DNA of 64,000 nt from Haloterrigena turkmenica DSM 5511 (GTDB lineage: Archaea; Halobacteriota; Halobacteria; Halobacteriales; Natrialbaceae). The stretch lies in contig NC_013745.1 of assembly GCF_000025325.1 (NCBI RefSeq), forward strand, positions 186,001 to 250,000, in the 5' to 3' direction. Below the pieces are notes generated by a model. That model did no database searches. It saw only the letters and a list, made by a program, of their open reading frames with translations, and was not told the origin of the DNA. Positions 9,957 through 26,892 of this stretch are shown here, piece after piece (position 1 is the stretch's first letter; each line of letters opens with the position of its first letter). A program made the translations under genes and the position numbers.

Positions 9957-10841
9957 CTATCGCCGAAAAAGGGACCGAATAGCACCCCGTAGCCGATACA
10001 GTTCAGAGATACGTTGCGGGGTACCAGTCTCCGACCCCGACTCGGGATCGTCCCTCATGTTGTCTGACCGCCACGCCGGAAGGTCAACGGGGAGGTTCGA
10101 CGCGGCGACACCGGAAATCACCCCCATCGAGGACGCTAGCACGGCGATTTGCAGTTCGAATCGACTAAAATCTAGCGAGTCGGACTGTAGGAGCGTCCAC
10201 ACCATTCCGGAAACGAACAGCACCACTCCGGCGACGGTCAACCACTTGTCTGCGACGGACAAACCGTCTTCCCGTTGCGTGAGTCGAACCACGACGACAC
10301 CCGTGACGAAGTGGACGATCCACACCACGAGGAGGGATCCCGCGATTGACAGTGCCACAAACGGGTTCCACGACGGGAGCGTCGACATGAAACTGGCGAG
10401 CAGGTTGGTCGGAACAAGACCGGCGACGAACTGTACGAACGCCCGAAGCACTGTGGCGATTAGGGAGTCGATCACCGCGAGGATCTGGACCGTGAGTCGA
10501 ACCTCGCCGTCGAGGAACGCCCACGCGAGGTCACGAACTAGTTCACTGCCGAGAAGTTCGGCGAGGAGAAAGAGGCCGAATGGCGGAATCACTCCCACCA
10601 CGAAAATCCAGCGTACGACCCACGAAAGGACGCCGCTCCGGGGGACGGTTCGCGCGACGAACCAGACGATAATGGCGAGCGGAACGATTGCAAGCAACGA
10701 TTCCTGGAGGACGCTGAGCGTCGTTTCGAATATGGGCACGGAGCAGTGGACACACTGAAACTGGAACAAGCGTATTGAGAACTTTTCGGCTCCGGAAGTA
10801 AAAGAAAGGGAGCTCCCGTTTCCGGTTTTGATCTTTTGCAT
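9957..10841 (-). CDS. Multi-pass membrane protein of unknown function
   Basis: The 294-residue product has about six hydrophobic segments, for example SLLAIVPLAIIVWFVAR, WIFVVGVIPPFGLFLLAELL, VQILAVIDSLIATVLRAFV, ALSIAGSLLVVWIVHFVTGV and WLTVAGVVLFVSGMVW. The C-terminal tail is polar. No transport or enzyme motif stands out. The start lies only about 30 bp from an IS6-type end, so the native 5' end may have been replaced; the first 35 residues are unlike the rest. Confidence 0.5.
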   Translation of the reverse strand: MQKIKTGNGSSLSFTSGAEKFSIRLFQFQCVHCSVPIFETTLSVLQESLLAIVPLAIIVWFVARTVPRSGVLSWVVRWIFVVGVIPPFGLFLLAELLGSELVRDLAWAFLDGEVRLTVQILAVIDSLIATVLRAFVQFVAGLVPTNLLASFMSTLPSWNPFVALSIAGSLLVVWIVHFVTGVVVVRLTQREDGLSVADKWLTVAGVVLFVSGMVWTLLQSDSLDFSRFELQIAVLASSMGVISGVAASNLPVDLPAWRSDNMRDDPESGSETGTPQRISELYRLRGAIRSLFRR

Positions 10842-10867
10842 TTACACTCCGGTTCCGAGGGGGATGG

Positions 10868-11260
10868 CACTGTCTAGTTTAGCACCTCGGCTGGTGTTTG
10901 TCCGTTGAGTGACTGGTGCGGTCGTTGTGTGTTATAATAGTGTACAAACTGTTCAAGCCATTCTCTGACGCTCGCCTGACTGCCCACCCACGAATTATGG
11001 AAGCGGTCAACTCGCATCTTGAAGGTGTGAAACCACTTTTCGATTAGGTTTCGATCAACGTAGTCGAGCTGACCGCTCAAACCTAATCGAGAGAGCAGTC
11101 AGATAGCCGTAGCCATCGACGAGAAACACGGTGTCTGAGAGATTGTGTTTCTCGGTCAACCGATGCAGGAACGCAGCGGCTGGATCGGTGCCTCGTCGTC
11201 CGAACACTGCGACATCGAGAACGAGCCCATCTTGCGTGTTCCAAGCCGACTGTCTACCGG
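10868..11260 (-). pseudogene. IS6-type transposase remnant with right end
   Basis: The minus strand encodes the C-terminal half of a haloarchaeal IS6-type DDE transposase in two frames: LVLDVAVFGRRGTDPAAAFL ... FLVDGYGYLTAL, then (shifted near 11080) SGQLDYVDRNLIEKWFHTFK ... YYNTQRPHQSLNGQTPAEVL. A one-base insertion separates them. The N-terminal third is missing upstream of about 11260. The terminal repeat GGCACTGTCTAGTTTAGCAC lies just beyond the stop (about 10867-10888). The copy at 52528-53117 is a sister remnant. Confidence 0.8.
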
Positions 11261-11544
11261 TCGCCAGCAACGGCGGCCACGGTGCGGGCGTTCGCCACGA
11301 TCCTGTCCGCTCGGCGAGCCCAATCCCGAAGACGCCGACACCACCTCCCAACCCACTACCCGTTGATAAATCGGCGGTAGCTTGATCGAATGAATAGGCG
11401 ATGTTTGGTTAGAGACACATAAGACGATCTCCTTCTGTCGTTTGTCCGAAACCCTCGGCGTCGCGGCCGCCGGCCTGGTGCACGCTCGAGTTCAAGTTAG
11501 TCCGCTCAGAGGGCGTCGGTCGTCGCAGAAAGGATCAGTGTAGC

Positions 11545-11713
11545 TTACTCATCGTCGCGCGCCTCTTTGTCCCACTGCTCGAGTTCGGTCATGTGCTGTT
11601 CGATTTCGTCCTTCGATGGGAGTTCGGTCGGGTTAACCGAGGAGTTGATATTTCGCTCCTCGCCTCTGGTCCAACTTATCGATTACTGGGATGGTAGCGG
11701 CTGCTGTACCCAT
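11545..11713 (-). pseudogene. Frameshifted small acidic protein
   Basis: An ATG at 11713 starts MGTAAATIPVIDKLDQRRG. In the next frame a coherent acidic end follows: EERNINSSVNPTELPSKDE, then HMTELEQWDKEARDDE, with the stop at 11545-11547. The two join across a shift at about 11660. The expected product is about 57 residues; the family was not recognised. A related start (minus-strand ATG at about 21620, reading MGTATSTVL, with similar upstream bases) suggests a second, more decayed copy. Confidence 0.4.
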
Positions 11714-12495
11714 GACCGTTGTTTTTGCTCGAGTCGACCCCACCCACCCCGCCGCGCTCGCTGTGAGATCAGACTGACGGCCGATCTAGATCGCCCAACC
11801 GCTGTGACGTCGGACCGGGAAGAGGTAGCAATTCTTGCGACGCCGTTTTCTTATTTGCGATTCGTTTACAGGTGAAACGTGCAGCAGCGTCGTCGAAGTT
11901 GCCGAGAACAAGCACCCTTGTGAAGAACTACCCTATCGGAACAAATCCGTCTATAGTACTAGTATACCAGATCGTTCCGATATGGTAGTCTTTGACACGG
12001 TGGAACTAGTTTACGAGATCGACGCCTCTCCGCTGCCGCGATCCACCATATAGGAGGGGCTCGCTGATCAGCAGTCGAGACTCGTACGAAGGATTCAGCA
12101 CTAACGGGCTAATCTCGGCATGAGAAGAGGGCGCAGATCGGTCGCAGTAATCGCCGAGATGTTATCATCACGAGGAGGACAAAATAGCAGAGCGACCGAC
12201 TGTCGGCTTCTATGAAAAACACGACATAGGAAGACCAAGAAGCTGATCGCTCAAGCCGAAGTGTACCTCGACGCCGACGGCGACAGCGGATACAAAACCG
12301 CCGACGGGAAATAGAACACAGCCTAGCCGTGACTGAAGCAACTCTCACTACTATCAACTCAGCGATCAAGTGGTTGTACCGCCGAGAGAACTACAAGAAG
12401 TTTACCTAGGGAATCAGACATCTACTTTTTGACAGCAGTCAAGCAAACAGGGTCAGAGTAGTAATCTGTACTTCCTGCTTCCTGCCATTCTCAGC
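11714..12495. other. Decayed region without supported genes
   Basis: Only short coding-like scraps are visible on the plus strand, such as KLIAQAEVYLDADGDSGYKT (about 12240-12300) and INSAIKWLYRRENYKKF ending in a stop at about 12410. They are in different frames and broken by stops. This looks like eroded plasmid or virus genes; none can be named. Confidence 0.4.
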
Positions 12496-12660
12496 TCATT
12501 TGTCCCTTCCGGTCGGGATGTCAATCTTCCATACCTGTTCAATACGCTGCGCGACCTTGAGCAGCGTAGATCCATCGCTGAGTTAATCAGCGCGGATGCG
12601 CAGCTGGGTGGCGATCTCTCGGTCTTCACCCTTCTCGCGAATAATGTTTTCATCGCTCAT
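12496..12660 (-). pseudogene. Small protein with in-frame stop
   Basis: From the ATG at 12660 the frame reads MSDENIIREKGEDREIATQL and RIRAD, meets TAA (12583-12585), and continues in the same frame with LSDGSTLLKVAQRIEQVWKI ... GRDK to the stop at 12496-12498. The charged, helical 54-residue product is antitoxin-sized, but I do not recognise its family. It overlaps the end of the preceding small gene by 11 bp, as in an operon. Confidence 0.4.
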
Positions 12661-12832
12661 GTCTCAGTTCCCTTCCGTTTGTGACCCCGAGCGTTCCGTG
12701 CCGGTCATGTAGATAATATCGAGACGAATCTACTTGGATCCACTGTGCATTACCACCATCATCTGCAGTCTGCAAGTTGTCACCGAAGTCGAAGTATTCC
12801 AGCTCGGTATGATCGTGGACCCTCGACCGCAC
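12650..12832 (-). CDS. Short hypothetical protein
   Basis: The 60-residue frame contains LEYFDFGDNLQTADDGGNAQ followed by WIQVD, loosely similar to the short haloarchaeal DUF7331-type proteins that end in an AWIQSD-like motif. The start and family are uncertain. It overlaps the next small gene downstream and may be a working partner or another relic. Confidence 0.3.
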   Translation of the reverse strand: MRSRVHDHTELEYFDFGDNLQTADDGGNAQWIQVDSSRYYLHDRHGTLGVTNGRELRHER

Positions 12833-12908
12833 AGCTGATCACCACGCCTCGTCCGGCCTGTGGATTACCAGCCGGCTCCGGATCGGGATGTAGACATGAC
12901 CGATGTTT

Positions 12909-13043
12909 TTACTCGATCACCACAGGCTCGCCGCAAACAGGGCAGACGGACCCATTCTTTTTACTTTTGATTTCAGACTGTTTACCCGTCCATCCACAGA
13001 TTGGACACTGTACTGGATCGGATCGAGACACAGGACACAGGGG
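12909..13043 (-). pseudogene. Zinc-ribbon fragment
   Basis: The minus strand reads DPVQCPICGWTGKQSEIKSK, then NGSVCPVCGEPVVIE and a stop at 12909-12911. This is a clear CxxC/CxxC zinc ribbon of about 40 residues. There is no ATG; only a GTG about six codons before the first CxxC could start it, and an in-frame stop lies at 13044-13046. It is either a minimal zinc-ribbon protein or the end of a lost gene. Confidence 0.4.
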
Positions 13044-13149
13044 TCATTCGTCGCCGGGCCAAAAAGCGTAGTGTCTGGATCGAACACCTGTTGATACTCG
13101 ACGAGTTCTGCTCACTACGTGCGGCTACTGAACGCGAGCTGGGTAACCG

Positions 13150-13656
13150 ATGAGCCGTTCGAGTCAGTCTCGGCTCGCTGTCTCAAGACAGGCTGGCGAT
13201 CGGTCCGAGACAGTCGTTCTCGAAGCAGTTCCAGGATTTCGCTATGTTCCGGATTCGGAAGCGAGCCACTACGACGCGATCGCCGAGGAGCTCATCGAAC
13301 CGAGCGAGCAGCTGCCGTTCGTCGGCATCGTCGTCCTTGAGGAAGGGACGGCGGTCGAGATCAAGTCCGTCTCCGTCGTCTACGGCCAGCAGCAGCGACG
13401 GGGCCGGTTCCAGCCACGGCGGGGTCAGCACGAGGCACTACTCGAGTCCGGGGGTGTCTACCTGTTCGCGATCTGTGCGCCCCACGATCGCGACCTGATC
13501 GCCATGAAGGTCGTCCCCGCGAGACAGGTCGATCATCTCATCGACGGCGTTACGAACGGCTGGCGATCGGCGGGCGAAGACCGCAGCGAGGAGTACGTTC
13601 AGTTCAGTTGGGCTCGCGTCTTCAACCCCGACGAGATTCTGGAGGGATCGCGATGA
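13150..13656 (+). CDS. Provirus-type protein, possible PD-(D/E)XK nuclease fold
   Basis: The 168-residue protein has a strand-turn-strand VGIVVLEEGTAVEIKSVSVV whose E-x-K fits the second half of a PD-(D/E)XK nuclease site. It continues with GRFQPRRGQHEALLESGGVY and LFAICAPHD, a pattern seen in restriction-like and Holliday-junction-like folds. The family is common in haloarchaeal integrated elements but uncharacterised. It overlaps the next gene by 4 bp (ATGA). The enzymatic role is inference only. Confidence 0.5.
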   Translation: MSRSSQSRLAVSRQAGDRSETVVLEAVPGFRYVPDSEASHYDAIAEELIEPSEQLPFVGIVVLEEGTAVEIKSVSVVYGQQQRRGRFQPRRGQHEALLESGGVYLFAICAPHDRDLIAMKVVPARQVDHLIDGVTNGWRSAGEDRSEEYVQFSWARVFNPDEILEGSR

Positions 13657-13940
13657 GCGTCGATCGTGACGATCGCGACCTCGAGGCCGAGCTGGTGAGC
13701 GCAGCTGCTGGTCAGGTCGGGATTCCAGTCGACGCGATTTGCGTGGTGTGGGCGAACGCGGATCAAGCGCGCCGATCCAATAGTGATGGGGCAGCACCCG
13801 CAGATCGATACGGCCAGCCTCAAGGCGACGGGCTGCACGTCGTTCAAGCACGTCTGTCACCGTGCGGTGGCGCGACGTGGTGGAACCCGGTAGCGGTTCT
13901 GACCAGTCTACTCGAGCGAGAGCGTGAGCGGGGTGAGTAG
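13653..13940 (+). CDS. Small provirus-type hypothetical protein
   Basis: The 95-residue product starts at the ATG at 13653 that overlaps the stop of the preceding gene (ATGA), indicating translational coupling. The acidic N-terminus (MSVDRDDRDLEAELVSAAAG) and a WANADQARR segment are followed by a variable end (ATWWNPVAVLTSLLERERER). No motif is recognised. The third gene of the set begins one base after its stop. Confidence 0.5.
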   Translation: MSVDRDDRDLEAELVSAAAGQVGIPVDAICVVWANADQARRSNSDGAAPADRYGQPQGDGLHVVQARLSPCGGATWWNPVAVLTSLLERERERGE

Positions 13941-13941
13941 G

Positions 13942-15306
13942 GTGTCACAAGTCGAGACGACACCGCACGAGATCGAGGGCCGGTAGAAGTGGCCCGACTG
14001 GGGCCGCGGTCCGTACGACGCGCCCTCGTCAGTGATGCTCGGTCCACTCTTCGAAGGCTACCTCGAGTTGGACGTCGAGATCGACGGCGAGCCGTGGCAC
14101 CTGAAGGTCAGTTACAGCAAGTCCGGCTTCGCGCCGCGGCTGTCAGACGGGATCAACGCGGAGCGACTGTACGAATGGGATATCGTGGGCCGTGGGCGCG
14201 GCGAGCGGAAGGCGTCGTACAACATCTCCCCGCGGTTCCCGAATATGCGTCACTGGGAGAGCGGTGACCCGATACAGCTCCCGTGGGAGAATCAAGTCGG
14301 CGCCGTCGACGTCGAGTTCCACACCAGTAACATCGAACCCGAGCGCGGTCTCGAGTTGCTGCCGGAGTTCTACGCAGCCGTGTTCGAGTACGCAGAGGGG
14401 CGAGTCCATCCCGAGTACTTTCGGACGGACCCGCACTCAGCGAGCCGCATGTGGGCGTACAAGCGGTACGTACGGATCCGTCGCGAGTGGGCGGAAAAGC
14501 TCTCGTCGGCCGGGGTCCTCCAGAAGGTTGCGCACTATCTCTCCGACCTCGAGGGAGTGAAAGCGGAACTCCATATCGACAACGAAGAGGTAGTCAACAA
14601 CCAGAACCGGCTGTTTCTGAATCCCGCGTCAGCGAGTAAGCTGTTGCCGGGCCACACCTACGGGCGAAAGTTCGAGATCTACCAGCTGGCGGATCCGAAC
14701 GCGGTCTCGAAAGATCACCCGTCGTACCACCCGAAGATATAGGTACTGGTGAACAAGTCGATGAACGACAACGAGGCATGGGCGTGGGCCGATCGCCACG
14801 AGGTGACCGAGCAGATCGAGGAAACGCTACTGAACGCGCTCCACTGGGAAGACATTCCGCTCGGTCTCGACGGTAACGGCGTGTACGTCCCAGACGATCA
14901 CTTCGACGCTGTGGCCCGTGACGACCCAGTCGAACTCTACGAGGATCCCACACCGCGCCTCGAGGCGAAGTCGGACCATCTGTTGATGACGACGCTGCGG
15001 GACATGGGCGAGACGGCCCGCGACGTCACAGAGACGGTCGCAACCGACGGCGGCACAACAGTCGACAGTCTCGCCGACCAGCTTGGGAAACACCCCGCGA
15101 CGATCTACCGCGCGATCGAAGATCTCGGCGATGTCCTCGAGCTCGACCAGGGCGACGTGTCGTTTCGCGCTCGGAAGTACCGCGAGGAGTTGCGGGCGCT
15201 CGTCGAGTCGGCCGAGTACGCGATCGAGAGCTACGCCGATCGGATGCAGCACCTCATGGGGCTGGCCGAAAACCACACCTTATGGCGAAAAACAACTACC
15301 CCATAA
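13942..15306 (+). pseudogene. DUF7845-like HTH protein interrupted by two in-frame TAG codons
   Basis: A GTG at 13942 opens VSQVETTPHEIEGR, a TAG follows at 13984-13986, and the frame goes on with KWPDWGRGPYDAPSSVMLGP and a long conserved domain (LELDVEIDGEPWHLKVSYSK). A second TAG at 14740-14742 sits after HPSYHPKI, and the same frame continues VLVNKSMNDNEAWAWADRHE to a helix-turn-helix (TTVDSLADQLGKHPATIYRA). All other codons are sense, and no frameshift is needed up to about 15270. The C-terminus then looks cut short (ENHTLWRKTTTP). Either the gene is decaying by point nonsense mutation or the TAGs are read through. It follows 13653-13940 in one operon. Confidence 0.6.
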
Positions 15307-15472
15307 CATACGGGTTAGACGTTCTCCGTGTTGAATAATAGCATAGATATCCACTGCCGTAATCTACCTAATTCGCTGATAACTACCAATCTGTGTTGGC
15401 CCTATATATTACACATTCTCTTCCTATATATTTTCAATCTATTTCTTCATATTTTTTGTTAGTATAGAAAAA

Positions 15473-15480
15473 TTTAATAA
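15473..15480 (+). promoter_or_regulatory. Probable TATA box of the halocin-like gene
   Basis: TTTAATAA lies 28-35 bases before the ATG at 15508 in a very AT-rich 150-bp upstream region. That spacing would place the transcript start within a few bases of the start codon, giving a nearly leaderless mRNA as is common in haloarchaea. Confidence 0.45.
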
Positions 15481-15507
15481 TGATGAAGAGAAAAGTGTAG
15501 CTGCGTA

Positions 15508-16452
15508 ATGTCGGAAGATAATACAGACGATAACAGTAACTTGAATCGCCGTAAAGTACTCCAATCTTTCGGTGCAGCAAGTATCGCTACGTTCGGAATA
15601 GGGACTGCTTCTGCCTCTAGAGGGCTACGTCGAACGGCAGATAGCAATAACCCCGAGTTACTTGCGGAGTCGGAGTTGAAGAGTGAGTACGAATATGCTA
15701 TGAATGCCGCTGAGGCACAGGAACTTCGTAATACACTTCATGAAAAAGGATTCTCAGCGGACCTTGAAAATAGCGTTGCAATCAAGGTTAACGTGGATGA
15801 ACTCCAACGAACAATAGAGGAATTCGACACCATCAGTGAAGCGGAACAGTTCAACGACCTTAATCCCGTTAGCTTGTTTGTTCCCTTCAGAACTGAAAGC
15901 AATACGGAAATTGCTCTTCTCAATGTGCTTGTCACTGACGATCCGGAAGGAAACCAGGATCGGATAGGTGCTAGTGGCTGGGCGTTCGAAATTAACCCAA
16001 CGATTAATGAAGACGAGGGGACGGTCACATCTCAAGTTGATGTATTGGCGACCAGTCCCGAAACCGACGGAACATTCGCTGCCCAGAGCCAAAGCACATC
16101 ATCAGCCGGAACTGTGACTATTGATCAGTTCACTGATGAAACAGACCTAGGCGAATTAACGGCGAATGAGCCTGCTTCGGACAGAGTTACGTCACAAGAT
16201 GTCAACATCGACGTTGACATCCCTGACGTTATCGGGGCGACGTTCTGTATGGCCGTGCTCAGTAAAATTTGCGACAAGTATGGAGATAGAGTCGCTCACA
16301 GTCAGTGTCTCAACATCTGTTTCAAGACAGGTGCGCCGCACGTCATTGTAGGCTGTTCAGCATTTTGTGTAGCAGCCGTTGAAGTTATCCAAGCGTACGG
16401 TTGCAAACCTTCGGCTAAGTGGCTCTGCGGTGCACTCGGACTGAGCGCTTAA
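15508..16452 (+). CDS. Halocin C8-like microhalocin precursor (Tat-exported, Cys-rich C-terminus)
   Basis: The 314-residue protein begins with a Tat signal (NRRKVLQSFGAASIATFGIG ... ASA, residues about 13-37). A soluble acidic domain follows (about 40-235). The C-terminal block of about 75 residues has eight cysteines (247, 255, 267, 271, 283, 287, 299, 307) and alternates hydrophobic stretches (ATFCMAVLSKIC, GCSAFCVAAVEVIQ). This order matches halocin C8, where the N-terminal part of the precursor acts as immunity protein and the Cys-rich end is released as the peptide antibiotic; that peptide has ten Cys, this one eight. The likely cut is near 231-243. Two membrane PH-domain genes follow. 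The gene is much richer in AT than its flanks, suggesting recent transfer. Confidence 0.7.
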   Translation: MSEDNTDDNSNLNRRKVLQSFGAASIATFGIGTASASRGLRRTADSNNPELLAESELKSEYEYAMNAAEAQELRNTLHEKGFSADLENSVAIKVNVDELQRTIEEFDTISEAEQFNDLNPVSLFVPFRTESNTEIALLNVLVTDDPEGNQDRIGASGWAFEINPTINEDEGTVTSQVDVLATSPETDGTFAAQSQSTSSAGTVTIDQFTDETDLGELTANEPASDRVTSQDVNIDVDIPDVIGATFCMAVLSKICDKYGDRVAHSQCLNICFKTGAPHVIVGCSAFCVAAVEVIQAYGCKPSAKWLCGALGLSA

Positions 16453-16616
16453 CGTCGGCAATAAAAAGCAAATTTTTGTAGCGCGACAACGCAAAACGTC
16501 GGATTCAGCACTCGTAAGTTGTAAACGCGATGGTTATACTATCATCGGTAACGTAATCCCCAATCGTAAAATGGTATCAAGCCAGATGTATTAGATGAAA
16601 TTCAAACGATATCACT

Positions 16617-17075
16617 ATGAAATTGTATTTACAAAATCGAGTACGATACCTTTGGTTTCTCCAGTTAATGCTAGTTGATGTATTCGTCAGTGGTATTTTG
16701 TGGATTGGAAGTGAGCAGTATGAGAGTCTCCCTTCCTGGATACCATTTGGTATGTTCGTCTTGATCGTCTGTATCGGTGCTCCAAACATACTGTTGCGAT
16801 ACCGCTCATGGCGGTTCGACATTGACGATAGAGGGGTCACTATCGAGTACGGGGTCATTCGGAAGCGTCATACATTCGTTCCGATGGACCGCATTCAGCA
16901 CGTCGATACAAATCAAACCCTGTTGGATCGATTGTTCGGTCTCTCGCGGGTCGTAATCCACACGGCAAGTGCATTTGAGTCTGATTTGACAATTCCGGGT
17001 CTGTGTCCCGAACAGACAATCAAAATTCGAAATAAAATTTTTGCGAAACAATCGTCAGACGGTGATGTTGTGTGA
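16617..17075 (+). CDS. YdbS-like membrane protein with bacterial PH domain (bPH_2)
   Basis: The 152-residue protein has two N-terminal membrane helices (YLWFLQLMLVDVFVSGILWI and WIPFGMFVLIVCIGAPNILL). One bPH_2 domain follows (about 65-145: WRFDIDDRGVTIEYGVIRKR, then FVPMDRIQHVDTNQTLLDRL and a FGLSRVVIHTAS strand). In bacteria YdbS/YdbT pairs contribute to resistance to peptide antibiotics, and bPH_2 proteins take part in immunity to or export of leaderless bacteriocins. It is 164 bp downstream of the halocin-like gene, and its stop overlaps the GTG start of the YdbT-like gene (GTGA). I infer a role in immunity or secretion. Confidence 0.75.
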   Translation: MKLYLQNRVRYLWFLQLMLVDVFVSGILWIGSEQYESLPSWIPFGMFVLIVCIGAPNILLRYRSWRFDIDDRGVTIEYGVIRKRHTFVPMDRIQHVDTNQTLLDRLFGLSRVVIHTASAFESDLTIPGLCPEQTIKIRNKIFAKQSSDGDVV

Positions 17076-18511
17076 ATCTACATCCATATTCCATAGTACG
17101 GCGAGCGATGGAGGAGGCCTCCTCATCCGTAAGTGCATTCGCCGGTCTATTAGTATTCTTGTACATAACTAACAATATAAATCGTCTTTTTGAGTTGATT
17201 TTGATATTTATAATTCTTACTATAGTTGATATTATTATGGAATTTATCCGCTGGCACCGGTTTTCTTACACAATTGAGAATGGACACTTGCAGATACAGT
17301 CCGGACTTTTCAACAGACAACACCGAACGATTCCGCTAGATCGGATACAGCAGGTCGATATCATACAAGACGGGCTCAGTAGTGTATTCGGGTTAGCAAT
17401 CGTGAGATGTGAGACCGCAGGAACCAAGGTCGAGAGCGAAATCGAACTACGATACGTGGGAAAAGATCAAGCCAACTCGATTCGAAAGCGTCTCGGGGAG
17501 ACGACCTCGACAGCAACGGCCAATTCTGACCCCACCGTGCTATACCAAGCATCGCCTCGGTCGCTCGCCCTGCGGAGCTTGACTACTTTACATTCGAAAT
17601 ATGTGTTGCTCGGGCTTGTCACCATTGTAATCGGTCTCTCAGAACTCCTGTCATCCTCCTTGGACCGTATCTCGGTTCCGTCCGTGATGGTCGGCGGTCC
17701 CGTCATAATCGCTGATGGGATCCTCGTTGTCGGAATTATCCTCGTCATAGCATGGTCCGTCGGCGCCGTCGTGACCATGTTCAAATACTACGATTTGACT
17801 GTCACGTGGGCGGATAAAACTCTCAGAAGCAGTGGGGGACTACTGTACGATTTCACTACCGAGATTCCCCTCGAAAAGGTTCAGATGATGCGGATATCGG
17901 CAAATCTGTTACACCGAGTGTTTGGCTACGCGGAACTAACAGTAGCATCCGCGGGGATAGCAGAACATAAACCCTGGCCATTCAGAAAACCGCTGATCCC
18001 GCTTGATACTCGGAGTACCATTGAGACTGTCGCACGACAAATCCTTGAGTACCGGGACGGTTCGTTACAGCGGCCACCAAAGCGGATGCGCCGACGGTAT
18101 ATTATACGGTATGCGATGGCTATCTGTATTATCACTGCCGTCTCCTGTATCGGCGGACTACTGTGGTCTGGGTACATTAGCCTCTTCTGTGCGTGGCCGC
18201 TGGTATTTCTTCCAGTAGGTCCAGTCCTCGCACATCTTACCTATAGGAGCCGCGGTATCGAACTACAGAACGATACTCTGGTTCTCAGACGAGGTGTAGT
18301 TCGGCAGCACACGTACGTGGTTCCCATTGAACGAGTCCAGACCGTCACACTGTCTCAATCTGTGTTTCAGCGCCGTCTAAGTCTAGCAACAGTCTCTATC
18401 GACACAGCGGCACCCTTTCTTTCAGTCAGGCTGCGCGCGGTGGATTTCGACGCCCAGACTATCGAATCTATTTATCAGGATATAAAACAAATGACTGTTG
18501 ACACTACTTAA
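17072..18511 (+). CDS. YdbT-like membrane protein with three PH (bPH_2) domains
   Basis: The 479-residue protein starts at a GTG overlapping the YdbS-like stop. Three pairs of membrane helices alternate with three bPH_2 domains at about 65-145 (RTIPLDRIQQVDIIQDGLSS), 250-325 (TEIPLEKVQMMRISANLLHR) and 395-470 (VVPIERVQTVTLSQSVFQRR). Each has the family core P-(L/I)-x-(R/K)-(I/V)-Q. The order and length match bacterial YdbT. With the 16617 gene it probably forms a membrane complex that shields the producer from, or helps export, the halocin-like peptide. No other candidate immunity gene is seen next to the precursor, apart from the precursor's own N-terminal domain. Confidence 0.78.
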   Translation: MNLHPYSIVRRAMEEASSSVSAFAGLLVFLYITNNINRLFELILIFIILTIVDIIMEFIRWHRFSYTIENGHLQIQSGLFNRQHRTIPLDRIQQVDIIQDGLSSVFGLAIVRCETAGTKVESEIELRYVGKDQANSIRKRLGETTSTATANSDPTVLYQASPRSLALRSLTTLHSKYVLLGLVTIVIGLSELLSSSLDRISVPSVMVGGPVIIADGILVVGIILVIAWSVGAVVTMFKYYDLTVTWADKTLRSSGGLLYDFTTEIPLEKVQMMRISANLLHRVFGYAELTVASAGIAEHKPWPFRKPLIPLDTRSTIETVARQILEYRDGSLQRPPKRMRRRYIIRYAMAICIITAVSCIGGLLWSGYISLFCAWPLVFLPVGPVLAHLTYRSRGIELQNDTLVLRRGVVRQHTYVVPIERVQTVTLSQSVFQRRLSLATVSIDTAAPFLSVRLRAVDFDAQTIESIYQDIKQMTVDTT

Positions 18512-18538
18512 TTGAACAAACCACTTCATGAAGTTTCG

Positions 18539-18790
18539 TTATCTTGTCCCATCAACATCTTCCAGCAGCGTTACTACTACTTCAAAACCGTGGCTGGTAT
18601 AGACGATGGTTTGATGACCTTTCTCAGCGGGTTGCCCCTTCTCAAGGGGGTTGTACTGATTCAATAGGGATAAAACGTCTTGGTTGACCAGCTATAGCAC
18701 TCCATGTTCAAAAGGAACGCTTCAGTACAGTACCAGCAGAGCGTTTTCCCGATCAGGTCGGGACTGTCGCATTCCTCAGGGAGTACCGTG
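18539..18790 (-). pseudogene. Frameshifted zinc-finger protein remnant
   Basis: Two minus-strand pieces read as one damaged gene: ECDSPDLIGKTLCWYCTEAF (zinc-finger-like CxxC after an earlier Cys) in one frame, and NQDVLSLLNQYNPLEKGQPA ... TIVYTSHGFEVVVTLLEDVD with a stop at 18539-18541 in another. The junction is near 18690. The family was not recognised. It marks the right edge of the AT-rich halocin island. Confidence 0.35.
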
Positions 18791-19044
18791 GCTTCAGGGA
18801 GTTCGCCATAGTCCCGCACTCAAGTTCGACCGGAACGTCTCAGTCACAGTCCTCGAGGAAGAGATAGAGGAACACGAACGCCGGTACCAACCCACTAGTT
18901 TCGGTCACTCTTCAATTGTATGAATGTGCTTACCTAGACTGACCAACGCTACTAATATGATGGATATAATAGATATAGTCTGGACACCTTCGCCCCTCCG
19001 AGCGGGTTCGAACATTCGGTTGTGGGAGGTGTCCGTATCGAACC

Positions 19045-19173
19045 ATGTCCAACGACACTACCACGAGCTCCCTGTCCAAGGACACTCGAGACGCCCTCTT
19101 CAACCTCAAGCGTTCTTCCTCAGAGCCGTATGAGGATGTCATCCTCCGAGAAGTCTCGAGTAACGATAATTAG
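19045..19173 (+). CDS. Short ribbon-helix-helix-type antitoxin-like protein
   Basis: The 42-residue product MSNDTTTSSLSKDTRDALFN LKRSSSEPYEDVILREVSSNDN resembles the N-terminal ribbon-helix-helix of VapB-like haloarchaeal antitoxins, where beta-strand T-T-x-x-L is followed by helices containing DALFxLK and YEDVILR. The usual C-terminal toxin-binding tail is very short, and no toxin gene is adjacent. It may be an orphan antitoxin or the stump of one. Confidence 0.5.
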   Translation: MSNDTTTSSLSKDTRDALFNLKRSSSEPYEDVILREVSSNDN

Positions 19174-19375
19174 CCAATCGAATACCATTCTCCGAGGGCA
19201 CGATCGGGGACGAAGACCATGTGGTTCCTTGTCCCATTCCTCAACCTGTCCAATTCGTCCCTCTCGCACGGTTGTTATTGGACTCAGTCATTCGTGTCGT
19301 GGCTGCAGTGGAATGTTCTACTGTGGCCCCTGCCCCCGTGAGACCTTCGGAGAACGTAGTTACACTACTCTATCA

Positions 19376-19693
19376 TGAGCGCCAAACGAAGATACTCCGG
19401 TCGATGTCGGCACCGACGCTGAACAAAGCCCTGAAGAAATCGCTAACCAGGCCACTGCAGACCTTGAAAACAGCACGATTACCAGAGCGACCATTCACCA
19501 TGCCCACGACGGGCTTTACTTTGAACTTGAGAACAGCCTTGGGGTCAAGTCACTCCGTGAACTAACCACACTAATTACGGGATTCGCAGCAGCTCTCTTT
19601 GATGAACCCTCGTTCCGTGACGGCCATCACATGAACCGGAACGGATCGGCTATGGCAATGGTCGAACTCGACCCGTATGATTTTGAACCCTAG
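19376..19693 (+). pseudogene. Hypothetical protein with disrupted start
   Basis: A coherent acidic frame of about 105 residues (EDTPVDVGTDAEQSPEEIAN ... LYFELENSLGVKSLRELTTL ... MVELDPYDFEP) ends at 19691-19693. The frame has no start codon after the TGA at 19376-19378. An ATG one base earlier (19375) is out of frame, so a small deletion has probably separated the start from the body. The family was not recognised; the setting is plasmid or provirus. Confidence 0.45.
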
Positions 19694-19747
19694 AGGAATT
19701 GGAAGTGGTGTTCCGAAAGCGTGTTATCGGAAACCTCGAGCGGGTGA

Positions 19748-19951
19748 TCTAGTCAGGCGGATTTCTCTCCGGTGGACGTCGGGAACGACCCGACCTTAGC
19801 CACTTCTTCGCACATTGTGATCGCCAAGCGGTACGAGCGTTGTATTGAGGACAGTTTGCCGGACGAAGCTGAACGGATTGAGAACGCGCCGACTCTCATG
19901 CGGCAGAAACAGATTGCCAAGGAGATCGCGAAGGAGCACTTCAATTCATGA
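19748..19951 (+). pseudogene. Hypothetical protein fragment
   Basis: An open frame without a start codon encodes ADFSPVDVGNDPTLATSSHI, then VIAKRYERCIEDSLPDEAER and a helical end (QKQIAKEIAKEHFNS). Its stop overlaps the ATG of the next gene (ATGA), so the original operon arrangement is still visible. The 5' end appears lost. Confidence 0.4.
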
Positions 19952-20198
19952 CGAATCAGGACAAGCTTGAGGGCCGTATTGAAGCTCTCCAGCAGAAGAA
20001 AGAGGCGTTGAGAATACGGCCCTTGGCGCGAAGTACGAACAGCAACTCGAGGACCTTCATGAAGAACGGCCTTCAAGTAATGCATTGTCGGCCACGCAAC
20101 GGCAAGAGCAACTTGAGGCACTTCGCCAGAAGGCCTTCGAGCACACGGCGCTCGCCTCGAGATACATGGAACAGATTGCGGAACTTGAGGACAACTAG
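19948..20198 (+). pseudogene. Frameshifted coiled-coil protein
   Basis: From the ATG at 19948 the frame reads MTNQDKLEGRIEALQQKKEA. After a one-base shift near 20012 the next frame continues as ALGAKYEQQLEDLHEERPSS ... QRQEQLEALRQKAFEHTALA ... EQIAELEDN to the TAG at 20196-20198. The product would be an 83-residue coiled coil of the kind found in virus or plasmid operons. It is coupled to the upstream fragment. Confidence 0.45.
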
Positions 20199-20365
20199 TT
20201 CATAAGTCCGGATTCTCCGGGAGCGCGTTCGGAGGATGGAACTCGAGCAGTCGGTTCACCACCAACCGACAGGGACAGGGGGGCGTTTGGCTGACGTCGT
20301 CCTCCTTTGAACGGCCACTCTCCCGCAACACTCCCGGAGAGTCCGACCAGCTACCCTCTAAGACA

Positions 20366-20608
20366 ATGCCAAGCTACGACGATAGCGACTTTCCCGACCT
20401 ACTCGAGACGGTGAATTGGGCACCGGCTTACCGCGTTGTCAACTGTCTCGGGTGTACGTTTCGAATAGCCAATCGCCAGCTGATCTAACTCGCCAAAGAC
20501 GGGGTTGTGGAAGTCCTAGACCCAGAGAACGACGCAAGAGGTATTCCTGATAACGAAACCACTAGTCGGCCCGATATCTGCTGCCGCCTAGCTGACGAGA
20601 CAGATTAA
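20366..20608 (+). pseudogene. Small protein with in-frame TAA
   Basis: MPSYDDSDFPDLLETVNWAP continues to NCLGCTFRIANRQLI, then TAA, then in the same frame LAKDGVVEVLDPENDARGIP ... DICCRLADETD and TAA at 20606-20608. One nonsense mutation explains the break in this 80-codon gene. A CxxC pair is visible before the stop. The family was not recognised. Confidence 0.4.
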
Positions 20609-20648
20609 GGATCTGGGATAATACAGATTCGGTCTATTCTGTCTCTAC

Positions 20649-20889
20649 ATGGCCAAAGCTGCCACTCGAGGAACAAACACTAAGTCTATAGGGGAAACGA
20701 GAAGAGCCTTGTTCCCTGCCGGGGGGTTGGGGGACTCTTGGTTCACAGAAAGGGCGCTGCCGGTTCCACGGCGGGGCTTCCACGGGACCGGGTGAGACGT
20801 CCCACTTGGAAGACAACGACTACGCAGAGGACAAACCAGGCGGTGGACCACCGATCAGTTCGAGGCGAGCAACGAGAGCGGCCCTGTAG
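20649..20889 (+). pseudogene. HGG-motif protein remnant (phage terminase small-subunit type)
   Basis: An ATG at 20649 opens MAKAATRGTNTKS. After a shift near 20690 the frame reads GKREEPCSLPGGWGT, then RCRFHGGASTGPG and a truncated end (GGGPPISSRRATRAAL, stop 20887-20889). The Cys-x-x-x-GWGT and CRFHGGASTGP motifs are those of the HGG-motif proteins that occupy the terminase small-subunit position in haloarchaeal proviruses. This supports a viral origin for part of the 13-22 kb debris. Confidence 0.5.
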
Positions 20890-21051
20890 TCCTTCGTTTG
20901 AGGACTTATAGCAAGTTTCACCGCTATAGACGTAGCTGGCTCTCTCGAGCGGTAGGATACGAGACAGAACGTCCCCCTGCTATGTCCCTATTTTGTGCCG
21001 AGAATCACTTAAAGAGAAACCCATGCAACCCAGCTTTGCATAGGTTCGGTT

Positions 21052-21480
21052 GGCTCTGTTGAAACCCTATTTTTCCGATTGATTCTAGTCTGAAACAGCT
21101 GGCCACTGAAGAGTGCGAGTATATCACACCCATCTGATCGTCACGCCGGGTGTTTGTCCGAGGGGCTCCGTACGCAAAACTATTGTAGGTAGGGAGAGAA
21201 ATCGAAGATATGAACACCACTACTACAACGAAGCGCCTTCCATCACGGGTAGCATGGGTGTTGGGAAGTGTTTCCCTCGTACTTGCGGTCACCGCTTCTG
21301 AGTATCTTGGAGCGGGTCCTATCGGGGCGGTTGTCGGAACAGCTGTTCTGATGTTAGTTTTGGCACGCGTCTATAAATTTGCATCCTCCTAAGGCACCGT
21401 CTATTTCTGCTAGACACACGCTCTGTACTGTCCAATTGAGGGTGTGAAAATTATCGACTTCTGAGGGTTCCAACAGAGCC
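21052..21480. mobile_element. 429-bp non-autonomous transposable element with passenger gene
   Basis: Inverted ends of 17 bp (21052-21068 and 21464-21480; GGCTCTGTTGAAACCCT against GGCTCTGTTGGAACCCT on the other strand) are flanked by a perfect 8-bp direct repeat GTTCGGTT (21044-21051 and 21481-21488). That is the classic mark of transposition. There is no transposase inside; the interior carries the 60-residue membrane peptide gene. Similar ends occur at 29069 and 32422. Confidence 0.75.
21210..21392 (+). CDS. 60-residue membrane peptide inside the 429-bp element
   Basis: The product has a short Thr-rich N-terminus, then two hydrophobic helices (VAWVLGSVSLVLAVTASEYL and GAVVGTAVLMLVLARVY) and a short end. 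Function is unknown. It is the only intact frame within the transposable element, and its codon use looks genic, so it is either a passenger gene or remains of a host gene captured between two IS ends. Confidence 0.5.
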   Translation: MNTTTTTKRLPSRVAWVLGSVSLVLAVTASEYLGAGPIGAVVGTAVLMLVLARVYKFASS

Positions 21481-21488
21481 GTTCGGTT

Positions 21489-21956
21489 CGATATATGCAG
21501 CGGCCTATGCAACTCTACTGTAGCCGAGTTGCGGCTGTGGAGTATGCGCCTCAGAGAACTCGTTATAGCTCCATCTTGTGACCCCGTGGATTATCAGGAC
21601 GGTGCTGGTCGCCGTACCCATGACTGTTATTTCGCGCTAATTTAGCCGACTCGAGCGGGCAGCTGCGCTCAGTTTCCGGAGACAACTGAGTCGTTGGGTG
21701 ACGATGTCCTCGGCAGATATCCCGTACCCGAGAGGGGCATCAATCTAAGAGGTGAAAGAGAATACACACAGCGAGCGGTTGTAAGCAACGTACCGTTATT
21801 AGTTCGTATACCGCTCGATCGGTTCGTCGTTGGTTCACTCTATAGACTCCTCGAGAGGCCACAGGAAAGACACCAGTTGTCCACGGAGAAGTCATACAGG
21901 AGCAGCGCGGAAATCACAAGATAAGATAGTTCAGAACATCCATGAGAGGCATTCAA
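21489..21956. other. Decayed stretch without supported genes
   Basis: No intact gene is visible between the 429-bp element and the virus-type gene at 21957. A minus-strand start at about 21620 (MGTATSTVL) with bases like those at 11711 hints at a relic of the same small gene, but the frame is soon lost. Confidence 0.3.
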
Positions 21957-22633
21957 ATGCAAAGATGCCTCGAGATCGTTGACTATACGATACGGAAGGT
22001 CACGCCGAACATCAAACGAGCGAACGTCAAAGGCGGCGCACAGCCCGTTCGTGAGAAGGAGTTTACGCCGATATCGGGACCGCTATCGAACTCGGTGCGC
22101 TAATTGATGCCGAGGACGCCGTTCTCGTTCCCGGGGGTGATCGGGTCGTCGACGTCAACGGCAACGTCTACAATCGGGGTGTCGACTACGAACTGAGTCG
22201 GAACGAGTTGACGATCACGGCGCTCGCAGATGGCACGATCTTGAATGGTACAGAGTGCCTGATCGACTACGAATACAAAGCTGTCGGGAGCTTCGAGACT
22301 GGTCACTATTTTGGTGATCCACGTGAGGAGGAGGTCGAAACGATCCCGCAACTGACCAGTGAGCGTGGCTGTTTGCAGGCTGCGAAGGCGATCGTCGATA
22401 CGGGTTCGGAGGCTCGGAGCGAGGCCGACGTCTCACTCCCGCCATCGGTCCCGGTCGATCTCTCCCTCGTCGAGCAGTTGGGCCTCGAGGACGTCTCAGG
22501 CGATGCAATGGCAATCTATGAGTTACAGGACTCGCTCGAGGGGTTACAGTTGCGTCTCGGTGATCGAACTCGGGTTCGTGACGCGGTTCAGCAGATGCAG
22601 CGTCAGCTGGCCGCGAACAGCGAGCGAGTGTGA
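21957..22633 (+). pseudogene. Frameshifted virus structural-type protein
   Basis: From the ATG at 21957 the frame reads MQRCLEIVDYTIRKVTPNIK and GGAQPVREKEFTPI. After a shift near 22075 it goes on as IGTAIELGALIDAEDAVLVP, GDRVVDVNGNVYNRGVDYEL and a long acidic C-terminus (SLVEQLGLEDVSGDAMAIYE ... QQMQRQLAANSERV). The strand-rich middle resembles phage tail or baseplate proteins. A second fragment of this gene is found at 27018, on the other side of the protease gene. Confidence 0.5.
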
Positions 22634-22674
22634 CCTAGTTTCCGGGCCAATTAGCACAGAATTACGGTAGGATC

Positions 22675-25600
22675 TTATGTTGCTCTCCCTATCTTTATAT
22701 CAACACCTGAAAGTTTCTCTGTTTGACCGTTATCTTGACCTCCCATATCTTCTGTCATACATCCGTTTTCGCCGTTCACATTTACGGTTGCGGATGGTTC
22801 GACACTATTTTCGTTACAATGTAGGCTGCCCCAAATACGAGCGCTTGATCCGTTCTCCAGTATAAATTCGTCTACCTCTATCTTGCCGTGAATGACAAGT
22901 GAGCTGTTCTCTTCAACAATCAACTCCTTGGTTTCCATTCCACCACGCACAGTTAGGGCTGTATCTGGAAGGACCGTGATAGATTCGGATGCTTCAATCC
23001 CTCCTCTAGCAGTTACCGAACCTTGAGTTGCCGTGACGGTTCCAGTGGCTTCTACACCACCATTGAATTGAGTGTCACGAGCAATCACATTGTGGCCTTC
23101 AGCGTGACCGTTAACACGGCCCTCCTGAATAACTATTGTACTACCATTACCACCTTCGAAACCTCCGTTCATATCACCACGAGCGACGAACATTGATTCC
23201 TTTCCAATTTCCTGTTTTCCGTTCAATCGCCTAGATTCAACCTGTATCTGTCCTATTTGAACTGCACTCTGAATGTCAGCTTTTGTGCGACTATCTATTT
23301 CATCTAGGTGCTGTGGAAGAGAAGAAGCGACGGAAATCGAAAGTGGTTGTGTAGTGTTCGTGAACCCCTGTGAATCAGCAACCGTGAGCGCAGGCTTTAC
23401 TTTTCCAGTCTGTGTGTACTGGTGTGTTGCCGTTGGATCAGCGGTAGTTTCGTCTACTGTGCCATCGCCGTCAAAGTCCCACCGATAGGCTGATACGCTC
23501 GAATCGTCATATGATCCACTTGCGTCAAAGTGAACAGGAGTACCTGCTTTCACCAGCGAGGCATTCGCTGTCATCTTTGGAGTTGGCGATCGATTTCCAA
23601 CTACAACAGCATTAGTCGCCGTTGTCTCTACGGAATTGCCAGCGTCGTCAACGGCTCTTACAGCTACGCTAAGGGTCCCCCGATACGGGCCCAACTCCAG
23701 AGTCGTCGTATAGTTTCCGCTATTTGCTTTTGTAAGTGGGACGTGCTCCCAGTTGGATTCATTGGCAAACGGTGTTGTTGACGGAACTCCGTTACTATCT
23801 CGTTTGGCGGTATAGAGTGTGACGTTCTGGACAGAGCTCCTTGTGTCCGACGTTGAGACGGTGACATTAAGCGATCCAGTAGGGACTACGTTCGTTCTTC
23901 CGTGCGACTCAAAGGAGATACTAGGAACAGTTGGTGGTCGTGTGTCCGAGGTGTCAGTCGTGGCCTTGAACGTGGTGACGGTATTATTCGACAGCGGTGA
24001 CATGCCATGTTGGTCCTGGACACGGAGTCGGACCGAACTGATATTTCTTCTGGCTAATGAAATCGGAACATCTGCTGAATTCTCGGTGAAAGAGTGAGTC
24101 TTATCGCCATTTATCCAGAGATCATACTGTTCTGATGGGCTGTCACTGATTACGTAACCATTCGGCGGCTGACCGACTGTTGGAAATACTGTGCTATTAA
24201 AGTGATGCTCTGAGAGCGACCAGCGCATCAACTTTGACCGGAAGGGATGCTTCTTTACCGCTGTTGTTAGTGACGAGTCATTGTCGAATTCTTGGATGAC
24301 CTGCTGTGGCGTTGCGCTCCATTCGGTGTATCCGAATGATCCTTCTGCGAAGGCATCATGGTAGTGTGCGATAGTTGGCGAGACATAGATAGTCTGATTG
24401 AATATTGTTCCCAGACCAGCAGGCATATATGACTGATATATCGGCACATTATCGAAGTCATCAGCTGCGAGTGTAGCAGAGTACGTTTCGTCAGGCGTCC
24501 CTTTGTAGTATCGAACGGTGTGTGTGTTCAAATCGTCTACATCAATACTGACTGTGTGGAGACCAGATACATGCTGCTTGGTATGCTTTAGGTGATAAAC
24601 CGTCGATGTATTGTATGCTTTCTCACCTTGAGGAGCCGTAATCACGCGACGGACCGCGTAGTTCATGTCCGAAGTCGGACTGATCCGAACTGCAGCTGTT
24701 GGCGCATTTTCAGCGACTACACGTTCATCAATAGGCCCACTATCCAATGTGGCGTTCACGATCACTGTTCGGTTCTGTAATTCATCACCGCTCTGTGGGA
24801 GTGTGCCAGTATCGACCGTCTGGGTGACAGTCTGAGATTCGTCTAAGATAATTGTCTCGAGCCCATCAATATACTCTGATTTCGCTGTGATCACCGGCTG
24901 TCCATTGTGACGGCCTGACGAAACCGCGACATACTCACCCGGTTGTTCAATGGCAAAATGAGCTGTAGAGCCGTCAAACTCTTTTGGACCATATACTCTA
25001 TTCGTCTTAGTGTGCATGAGTGTAATACGATCACCATCTATCGATCCGAGTCCGTGTTTTTTGACCGTTACCTGCCGTTTCGGAACGTATCCAAAGATCG
25101 CAGTCGTATCGCCCACATGAAGTCTCCCAGAGTGAGGTTTTGACAGGTCATTAGTGGTGTTGACTGTCAATGCCAAACTAGCTGTAGAACCTGGTTTGAG
25201 AGTCATTGACGATCGATTCACCGATACAGTCCCGGGATCGGACGACTGAATGGCCACTGCCTTCGCAGAAACATTCACTTGTCGACGCTCTGAGCCCAAA
25301 TTCCGGACAGTAACCGTTTTCGTCACTGTTTCCCCGGCAGGAAATTGTCCGAAGTCGATAGTCGTCGGATCAATTACAATGTCGGGACTGAGTGCTGCCG
25401 TCACGTTGAGTTCGCCACTTCCCTGCGTGTAGATGTCCTGTGAACCGAGGGAATCAGTTGTCGACGTAATCGCATTCTTCACCCGCTGCTCGCTCCATCC
25501 GGGGTGTTTCTCATGGAGAAGCGCGGCGGTTCCAGCTACTATCGGAGTTGAGAATGATGTCCCCTCAGTCGAACGGTATCCAGTAGTACGAGCATCTGGT

Positions 25601-26892
25601 GCCGTAACACCATCCCCAGGAGCGACGAGATCTGGTTTCACATACCGACCGATCGGAGTCGGTCCTTGCCTAGAAAACGATGGTACCTCCGATTCGTTCA
25701 CACTTGACCCAACAGTGATTACGTCACGCAATGTTCCTGGCGAGGTGATTGATCCATAGCCAGCGTTGTTACCGGCTGCAGCAACGACAGTTGTATCCCT
25801 TTTCACTGCATCTTTGATGGTGCTGCGAAATGGATCATTCGTCCGAATTGTCGATGGTTGGATACCGAAACTCATCGAGATTACATCCGCATCTTGTTGG
25901 GTAGCATACTCAACCCCGTCAATGACCGTGGATATCTTCCCAGACTCGGTCCGGTCTAATACTCGAACATCAATGACATCAGCGTCTGGGGCAACTCCTA
26001 CATACGTATCGTTAGAGGTACCATCTCCAGTAATAAGTCCAGCTGCTGGTGTCCCATGGTTAGGGAGATCTCCGGTTTTTCCGTCGTCCACTAGGTCGAT
26101 TTCTCTAACCTCTGAATCGCCAATATCTGGATGTGATTCGTTGATTCCGGTATCGAGAACTGCAACTGTGACATCTTCACCGGTCACATTGTATTGATCA
26201 TGAGCCGACTCCAAATCTATATTTGAACGAGGAGTGGTCCCGGCACCCTTAACCGTCGCATCATAATACACTGATTTAACATTTCGTGCGCTTGCTAACC
26301 GCTGGTACGTTTCGTCTGTGGCAGACTTCGAGACAGACACCGCTGTCCCATTAACCGTTTCTAATTGCCGATGATTTCTGATATCGCCTCGCTGCTTGGT
26401 AGGCACACCGTCGTTCATCGCATCACGCTCAGTATATTCAACAATGATTGGAATCGAATCTGATTCGGCGTCCGTTATATCTTGTTCTCGGAGTAAGTCG
26501 ATGTTGAATAAGCTTTTATCAAATTTCGTGAGGTCAACTCCTTCTGGTACGATGTGAACACCAGTTCGAGTCTCGAATTTCGTTGCTGACTTGTTTCCAA
26601 GAAGTCGATACGTCGGTTCTAGACCACGCTTGTCTATAGCAACTATGTCTCCAGTAATGAGCGTAAGTTTCTCTATTTGACTTTGGCTTATATTATCGCT
26701 ACTGAGAAATGCAGTAGTTACGTTTGACGTGATATTATCTCCTGTTGTTGGAATATTACCCGTTTCGGACTGAACAACAGAAGCAGTTCCAATACCAGAC
26801 ATCTGAAAAGACAACACGGATATGAGAAAAACTAGAGTTAAAATTCGAATTATGCTTCTAATTTTATATACTTTGGGATCGTTAACTATCAT
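22675..26892 (-). CDS. Large secreted subtilisin-type (S8) serine protease with PKD and bactofilin-like C-terminal regions
   Basis: The 1405-residue protein has an N-terminal signal (IIRILTLVFLISVLSFQ). A propeptide-like segment leads to an S8 domain with catalytic Asp247 (VAVLDTGIN), His279 (NHGTPAAG), oxyanion Asn375 (AAAGNNAG) and Ser446 (GTSFSTP). Beta-sandwich modules follow, then a PKD domain (about 1130-1215: WDFDGDGTVDE). The Gly-rich repeat region (FNGGVEATGTVTATQGSVTA, then VRGGMETKELIVEE) resembles polymer-forming bactofilin-like beta-helices. The Cys pair near the end may form a disulfide. It probably acts outside the cell on proteins and could assemble or attach at the surface. 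It is AT-richer than the flanks and sits between copies of one virus gene. Confidence 0.8.
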   Translation of the reverse strand: MIVNDPKVYKIRSIIRILTLVFLISVLSFQMSGIGTASVVQSETGNIPTTGDNITSNVTTAFLSSDNISQSQIEKLTLITGDIVAIDKRGLEPTYRLLGNKSATKFETRTGVHIVPEGVDLTKFDKSLFNIDLLREQDITDAESDSIPIIVEYTERDAMNDGVPTKQRGDIRNHRQLETVNGTAVSVSKSATDETYQRLASARNVKSVYYDATVKGAGTTPRSNIDLESAHDQYNVTGEDVTVAVLDTGINESHPDIGDSEVREIDLVDDGKTGDLPNHGTPAAGLITGDGTSNDTYVGVAPDADVIDVRVLDRTESGKISTVIDGVEYATQQDADVISMSFGIQPSTIRTNDPFRSTIKDAVKRDTTVVAAAGNNAGYGSITSPGTLRDVITVGSSVNESEVPSFSRQGPTPIGRYVKPDLVAPGDGVTAPDARTTGYRSTEGTSFSTPIVAGTAALLHEKHPGWSEQRVKNAITSTTDSLGSQDIYTQGSGELNVTAALSPDIVIDPTTIDFGQFPAGETVTKTVTVRNLGSERRQVNVSAKAVAIQSSDPGTVSVNRSSMTLKPGSTASLALTVNTTNDLSKPHSGRLHVGDTTAIFGYVPKRQVTVKKHGLGSIDGDRITLMHTKTNRVYGPKEFDGSTAHFAIEQPGEYVAVSSGRHNGQPVITAKSEYIDGLETIILDESQTVTQTVDTGTLPQSGDELQNRTVIVNATLDSGPIDERVVAENAPTAAVRISPTSDMNYAVRRVITAPQGEKAYNTSTVYHLKHTKQHVSGLHTVSIDVDDLNTHTVRYYKGTPDETYSATLAADDFDNVPIYQSYMPAGLGTIFNQTIYVSPTIAHYHDAFAEGSFGYTEWSATPQQVIQEFDNDSSLTTAVKKHPFRSKLMRWSLSEHHFNSTVFPTVGQPPNGYVISDSPSEQYDLWINGDKTHSFTENSADVPISLARRNISSVRLRVQDQHGMSPLSNNTVTTFKATTDTSDTRPPTVPSISFESHGRTNVVPTGSLNVTVSTSDTRSSVQNVTLYTAKRDSNGVPSTTPFANESNWEHVPLTKANSGNYTTTLELGPYRGTLSVAVRAVDDAGNSVETTATNAVVVGNRSPTPKMTANASLVKAGTPVHFDASGSYDDSSVSAYRWDFDGDGTVDETTADPTATHQYTQTGKVKPALTVADSQGFTNTTQPLSISVASSLPQHLDEIDSRTKADIQSAVQIGQIQVESRRLNGKQEIGKESMFVARGDMNGGFEGGNGSTIVIQEGRVNGHAEGHNVIARDTQFNGGVEATGTVTATQGSVTARGGIEASESITVLPDTALTVRGGMETKELIVEENSSLVIHGKIEVDEFILENGSSARIWGSLHCNENSVEPSATVNVNGENGCMTEDMGGQDNGQTEKLSGVDIKIGRAT

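Follow-up and report, generated by a model that had tools for sequence, protein, structure and literature searches.

The question raised by this locus is whether a Tat-exported, cysteine-rich precursor and two adjoining bPH_2 membrane proteins of Haloterrigena turkmenica DSM 5511 belong together, and what the membrane proteins do for the peptide. All coordinates given here are positions in the window, i.e., the whole 64,000-nt stretch that was analysed (contig NC_013745.1, 186,001–250,000, forward strand). The three open reading frames were found where the initial annotation had placed them (Table 1). Its assignment of one and three bPH_2 domains was recovered with PF03703, and the GTGA overlap was located at 17072–17075, which the GTG start of ydbT and the TGA stop of ydbS share. 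In the model of YdbT, a helical hairpin precedes each bPH_2 domain. The genes form a pair of the YdbS/YdbT type, defined as adjoining genes with one and three bPH_2 domains (PF03703) and TM segments.

Table 1. Features of the precursor–bPH_2 locus in window coordinates.
Feature	Position	Strand	Basis
Tat-exported halocin C8-like precursor, 314 aa	15508..16452	+	ORF; TIGR04449, 25.0 bits; AlphaFold2 layout
Precursor parts: signal 1–37, N-domain about 54–213, linker 217–241, 8-Cys domain 244–309 (residues)			AlphaFold2 layout
Predicted mature peptide, residues 231–314, 84 aa, 8 Cys, 8763 Da reduced	16198..16449	+	If cleaved after TSQ230
YdbS-like membrane protein, 152 aa, two TM segments and one bPH_2; proposed immunity subunit	16617..17075	+	PF03703, E = 1.5e-17; adjacency kept in relatives
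YdbT-like membrane protein, 479 aa, three TM-hairpin and bPH_2 units; proposed immunity subunit	17072..18511	+	PF03703 x3, E = 4.7e-43; model layout; clade of precursor-linked YdbT

The GC contents of the three genes are 48, 45, and 49%, as compared with 55.6% for the whole window and an ORF median of 57%. They had been described as AT-richer than their flanks. This holds for the upstream flank, which is sharply GC-richer, but not for the downstream flank, which is itself at 47–53% GC and leaves the island without a sharp right-hand boundary. A tyrosine recombinase at 27431–28570 (minus strand; Phage_integrase, E = 9.1e-15) is consistent with a mobile region. The precursor yielded zero protein matches among the PLSDB plasmids, and in the comparison of window positions 10000–25000 with plasmid DNA, similar DNA covered at most 11% in any single record. 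DUF7845 extends over two consecutive ORFs (14032–15306, plus strand), the first covering profile positions 34–259 and the second positions 264–314 of 315, followed by an HTH-like part. The gene may be naturally divided in this way, or it may be broken.

The initial annotation had read the precursor as a Tat-exported protein ending in an eight-Cys block, and as a divergent microhalocin. The twin-arginine motif NRRKVLQSF was indeed read near the N-terminus, and the eight Cys residues fall between residues 247 and 307. The NCBIfam halocin C8-like domain (TIGR04449) matched residues 245–311 of the whole protein, confirming the anticipated profile similarity with a score just above the curated cut-off of 24 bits; the score obtained in the genome search was 29.5 bits. 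The matched domain sits at the C-terminus, behind the Tat signal and a separate N-domain, an order taken from the AlphaFold2 model. This model was built from 19 sequences (mean pLDDT 66) and contains a signal helix, an alpha/beta N-domain whose best part exceeds a pLDDT of 85, a disordered linker, and helices in the C-domain. Foldseek searches with the precursor model and with the YdbT model returned no match at E < 0.001.

The precursor might instead yield a signal peptide or a surface protein, with the pair sensing or anchoring the product. Sequence similarity, at a score this close to the cut-off, is the sole link to halocin C8; however, the closest characterised family is an antibiotic, and we hold this alternative to be very unlikely. 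The microhalocin reading, with eight rather than ten Cys, is supported by the TIGR04449 match and by the linkage described below.

TIGR04449 matches were present in 47 of the 391 genomes sampled from the class, and 65 halocin C8-like loci were retrieved from this sample for the neighbourhood work. An alignment of 53 domains showed ten near-constant Cys residues, opening with CxxC and in most cases closing with Cx5C. The window peptide has lost precisely the outer two of these ten, with Ala at the first position and Ser at the last, and its 8-Cys pattern is common to several relatives. Having eight and not ten Cys residues, the precursor was classed with the halocin C8-like proteins rather than with halocin C8 itself. 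The genome of the window carries a second halocin C8-like precursor with ten Cys residues on its largest contig (L001/L059), and no bPH_2 genes were found near it.

The motif [ST]xQ was 4.7-fold enriched just before the Cys domain (23/928 versus 50/9242 sites, p = 6e-8, uncorrected for relatedness). Therefore, we took the bond between TSQ230 and D231 as the likely cut site. Cleavage at TSQ/DVN would give a peptide of about 84 residues instead of the 70–80 residues expected initially. A large secreted subtilase of 1404 aa (22678–26892, minus strand) lies 4.2 kb from the bPH_2 pair on the opposite strand, and contains Peptidase_S8 (E = 1.8e-52), PKD, and HYDIN-like Ig domains. Since haloarchaeal serine proteases are able to activate antimicrobial precursors (PMC12893001), this enzyme could, by analogy, mature the 8-Cys peptide. 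Among the genes noted incidentally beside the other linked loci, none was of this kind.

The linkage was assessed from both sides. Five of the 65 retrieved halocin C8-like loci had bPH_2 genes within 7 kb. Starting from the bPH_2 side in 15 genomes, we reached L097, where the pair immediately follows a Tat precursor with eight Cys residues whose score had fallen short of the TIGR04449 cut-off. When 125 genomes of the family were searched with a profile of these precursors, the close relatives of the window precursor amounted to ten members; a search of 392 genomes of the order added none as close from outside the family. The pair is adjacent in six of the ten (the window, L097, L071, L172, L173, and L086). 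The order precursor–ydbS–ydbT on one strand is found in four of these loci (the window, L097, L071, and L172); in the latter two, precursor and pair are separated by a small membrane gene on the other strand. The precursor and the pair diverge in L086 and L173. There is no pair near the precursor at L069, L088, L085, and L094, the last of which is cut by a contig end; with four of ten close precursors in this state, the pair is not obligatory.

Given about three bPH_2 loci per genome, the expected chance adjacency is about 0.5% per locus. The probability of the linkage is about 1e-5 even if just three lineages are independent. Chance neighbours were rejected on the basis of this difference (six of ten observed) and of the finding that the linked YdbT proteins constitute one clade. 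The precursor–pair locus is a real, conserved accessory locus. The concern attached to the initial annotation, that bPH_2 pairs might be equally common away from such precursors, was not borne out, and precursor-free members of the clade exist. At two loci of another halocin C8-like subtype (L045 and L053), a YdbT of one of the common clades is found 0.15 kb away, facing the precursor. This different YdbT lineage beside another subtype suggests that the link originated a second time, making at least two origins in all.

The YdbT-like proteins of the six linked loci fell into one 13-member clade (support 100/99), which stands apart from the two clades of common YdbT genes. The precursor tree showed the same three sub-groups as the YdbT tree (window/L097, L071/L172, and L086/L173), with moderate support. 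Divergence was faster in the precursor than in YdbT, and the precursor distribution was patchy. These trees bear on the possibility that the pair serves as a general module related to envelope stress or lipids, co-carried on an accessory island without any joint work. Such a role would suit the other YdbT-like genes, which occur away from precursors in every family genome, the seven of the 13 clade members without an adjoining precursor, and the AT-rich composition, which resembles transferred DNA. Against it stand six adjacent loci in two gene orders, at a chance of about 0.5% per locus, the matching precursor and YdbT subtypes, and the second independent association. We consider this possibility distinctly unlikely.

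A precursor-free copy of the locus was found in Natrinema gelatinilyticum BND6 (L174), at the same site as L172. Here, 304 bp with no recognisable precursor trace replace the 1070 bp of L172 that hold the precursor, and the small membrane gene and the pair are kept intact. The dN/dS values between L174 and L172 were 0.08 for ydbS and 0.16 for ydbT; such low values from two genomes indicate constraint, irrespective of which function is constrained. Orphan bacteriocin immunity genes, where immunity is kept without the toxin, do occur. As the pair is kept without the precursor under purifying selection, immunity is favored over export.

The pair could still be an export or release complex, carrying the peptide through or off the membrane, with protection as a by-product. 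The one-plus-three bPH_2 architecture and the protein sizes resemble those of DdE (141 aa) and DdF (458 aa), which are required for enterocin DD14 export and whose deletion traps the bacteriocin inside the cell (PMC8657885). Enterocin DD14 is leaderless, whereas the window precursor bears a Tat signal that already explains export and makes a dedicated second exporter unnecessary. Together with the persistence of the pair where the precursor is missing, this renders an export complex unlikely. The wording "immunity or secretion" of the initial annotation can thus be narrowed: with a Tat signal in the precursor and a conserved copy of the pair where no precursor remains, immunity is the likelier part, and secretion less so.

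We think it fairly likely that the locus makes a microhalocin and that the YdbS/YdbT-like pair gives immunity to it. The precursor would leave the cell folded via Tat, and cleavage in the linker, perhaps at the TSQ site, would free a compact, helical peptide carrying as many as four disulfides. The freed peptide would attack the membranes of rival haloarchaea. YdbS, with one TM-hairpin and bPH_2 unit, and YdbT, with three in a row, would reside in the producer membrane and together stop the peptide from inserting or assembling there. A conflict system would fit the patchy distribution, the faster divergence of the precursor, and the existence of a resistant-type locus that lacks the precursor. 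Several points were counted against immunity, among them the four of ten close precursors that have no pair nearby. The halocin C8 precursor's own N-domain is reported by Sun et al. (2005) to confer immunity, so a second immunity factor may be superfluous. By analogy with enterocin DD14, the pair might act in export, and a general role in the envelope is conceivable for the clade members that lack a precursor.

The wider halocin C8-like family was inspected for membrane neighbours. A neighbour with at least two TM segments was present within 500 bp of 33 of the 61 wider-family precursors and of 51 of the 242 control genes. These neighbours differ from subtype to subtype, and the bPH_2 pair therefore seems to be one among several interchangeable membrane partners, as expected if immunity partners are varied. 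A recurrent cassette, all on one strand, is located behind the halocin C8-like precursors at L033, L034, L040, and L056. It encodes a 120–125 aa protein with four TM segments and a 529–539 aa protein with 9–11 TM segments, and is a candidate alternative immunity or export module. In one genome only (G295), an insert at L099 (2918–4199, plus strand), some 1.6 kb ahead of a bPH_2 pair without precursor, encodes a 262-aa six-Cys Tat protein and a 108-aa membrane protein. Neither protein had a Pfam match, and the insert is possibly another toxin and immunity pair.

The fold of the modelled peptide offers a lead. The best structural match to the C-domain model was NK-lysin, at Z = 7.2 and 2.6 Å for 71 residues, with saposin D at Z = 6.3; Z values of 6–7 are below the caution level of the tool for helical bundles, and the model of this domain is moderate. 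Neither a PDB profile search nor Pfam gave saposin homology by sequence. The hhalign score to saposin A (14.1) was not significant against Cys-fixed shuffles (8.9 ± 1.9, maximum 14.5). The halocin C8-like family mostly opens with CxxC and closes with Cx5-7C, and saposin A has CxxC and Cx5C; in contrast to NK-lysin and the saposins, halocin C8-like peptides have more cysteines and no sequence-profile match. The models hint at a saposin-like peptide, which we treat as a lead and not as a finding. A saposin-like fold is found in many leaderless bacteriocins (PMC7559574, PMC10376788), and some bacterial saposin-fold bacteriocins are accompanied by YdbS/YdbT pairs. It is conceivable, though doubtful, that halocin C8-like peptides represent archaeal membrane peptides of the saposin-like type and that YdbS/YdbT pairs are a machine common to Bacteria and Archaea for the immunity, removal, or export of this fold. 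The 8-Cys subfamily would then have lost the outermost disulfide of the nest, from the first to the last Cys.

Judged from its sequence, the secreted Cys-rich peptide of this salt-loving archaeon is probably an antibiotic, and the pair probably protects the producer. To our knowledge, the combination of an antibiotic with a bPH_2 pair has been known so far solely from bacterial peptide antibiotics. No paper on halocin together with pleckstrin homology was found in a literature search that left aside the 2019 survey of archaeal toxins in mBio, and an earlier report is possible. The protease-activated haloarchaeal precursor HFX_0892 (PMC12893001, 2026) is a different one, and PH domains are not mentioned for it. 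Little is known about the antibiotics of Archaea, and next to nothing about the corresponding immunity proteins. For a halocin C8-like peptide, the locus supplies a candidate immunity pair that can be tested, as producers, the natural precursor-free strain BND6, and three matched subtypes are at hand. If the pair does act on saposin-shaped peptides in both domains of life, this would provide a common explanation for the poorly understood bacterial YdbS/YdbT.

The locus can be compared with three further known systems. It shares with halocin C8 and the halocin C8-like (TIGR04449) precursors a layout of Tat-type precursor, N-domain, linker, and C-terminal Cys-rich hydrophobic domain. It differs from them in the missing outer two Cys residues and in the adjoining bPH_2 pair. 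Between its N-domain and those of the halocin C8 type, hhalign recognised no relation (probability of 0.1, with just five sequences on the halocin C8 side). YdbS/YdbT of Bacillus subtilis, for which resistance to B. amyloliquefaciens compounds is reported (as cited in PMC10311245), is alike in domain architecture and order; the Bacillus pair is not reported beside a peptide gene. One-plus-three bPH_2 pairs also occur in the leaderless bacteriocin clusters of Firmicutes, namely DdE/DdF (enterocin DD14), LnqC/LnqD (lacticin Q), and Geo6B/C (geobacillin 6). Unlike these clusters, the window locus is archaeal, its peptide contains cysteines and is made from a precursor with a Tat signal and a roughly 190-residue N-domain, and no ABC transporter genes were recognised among the nearby ORFs, judged mostly by eye. 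The pairs themselves are alike, with one and three bPH_2 domains in proteins of about 140–150 and 460–480 aa, encoded by adjacent same-strand genes beside the gene of a membrane-active peptide, a property that we predict for the window peptide.
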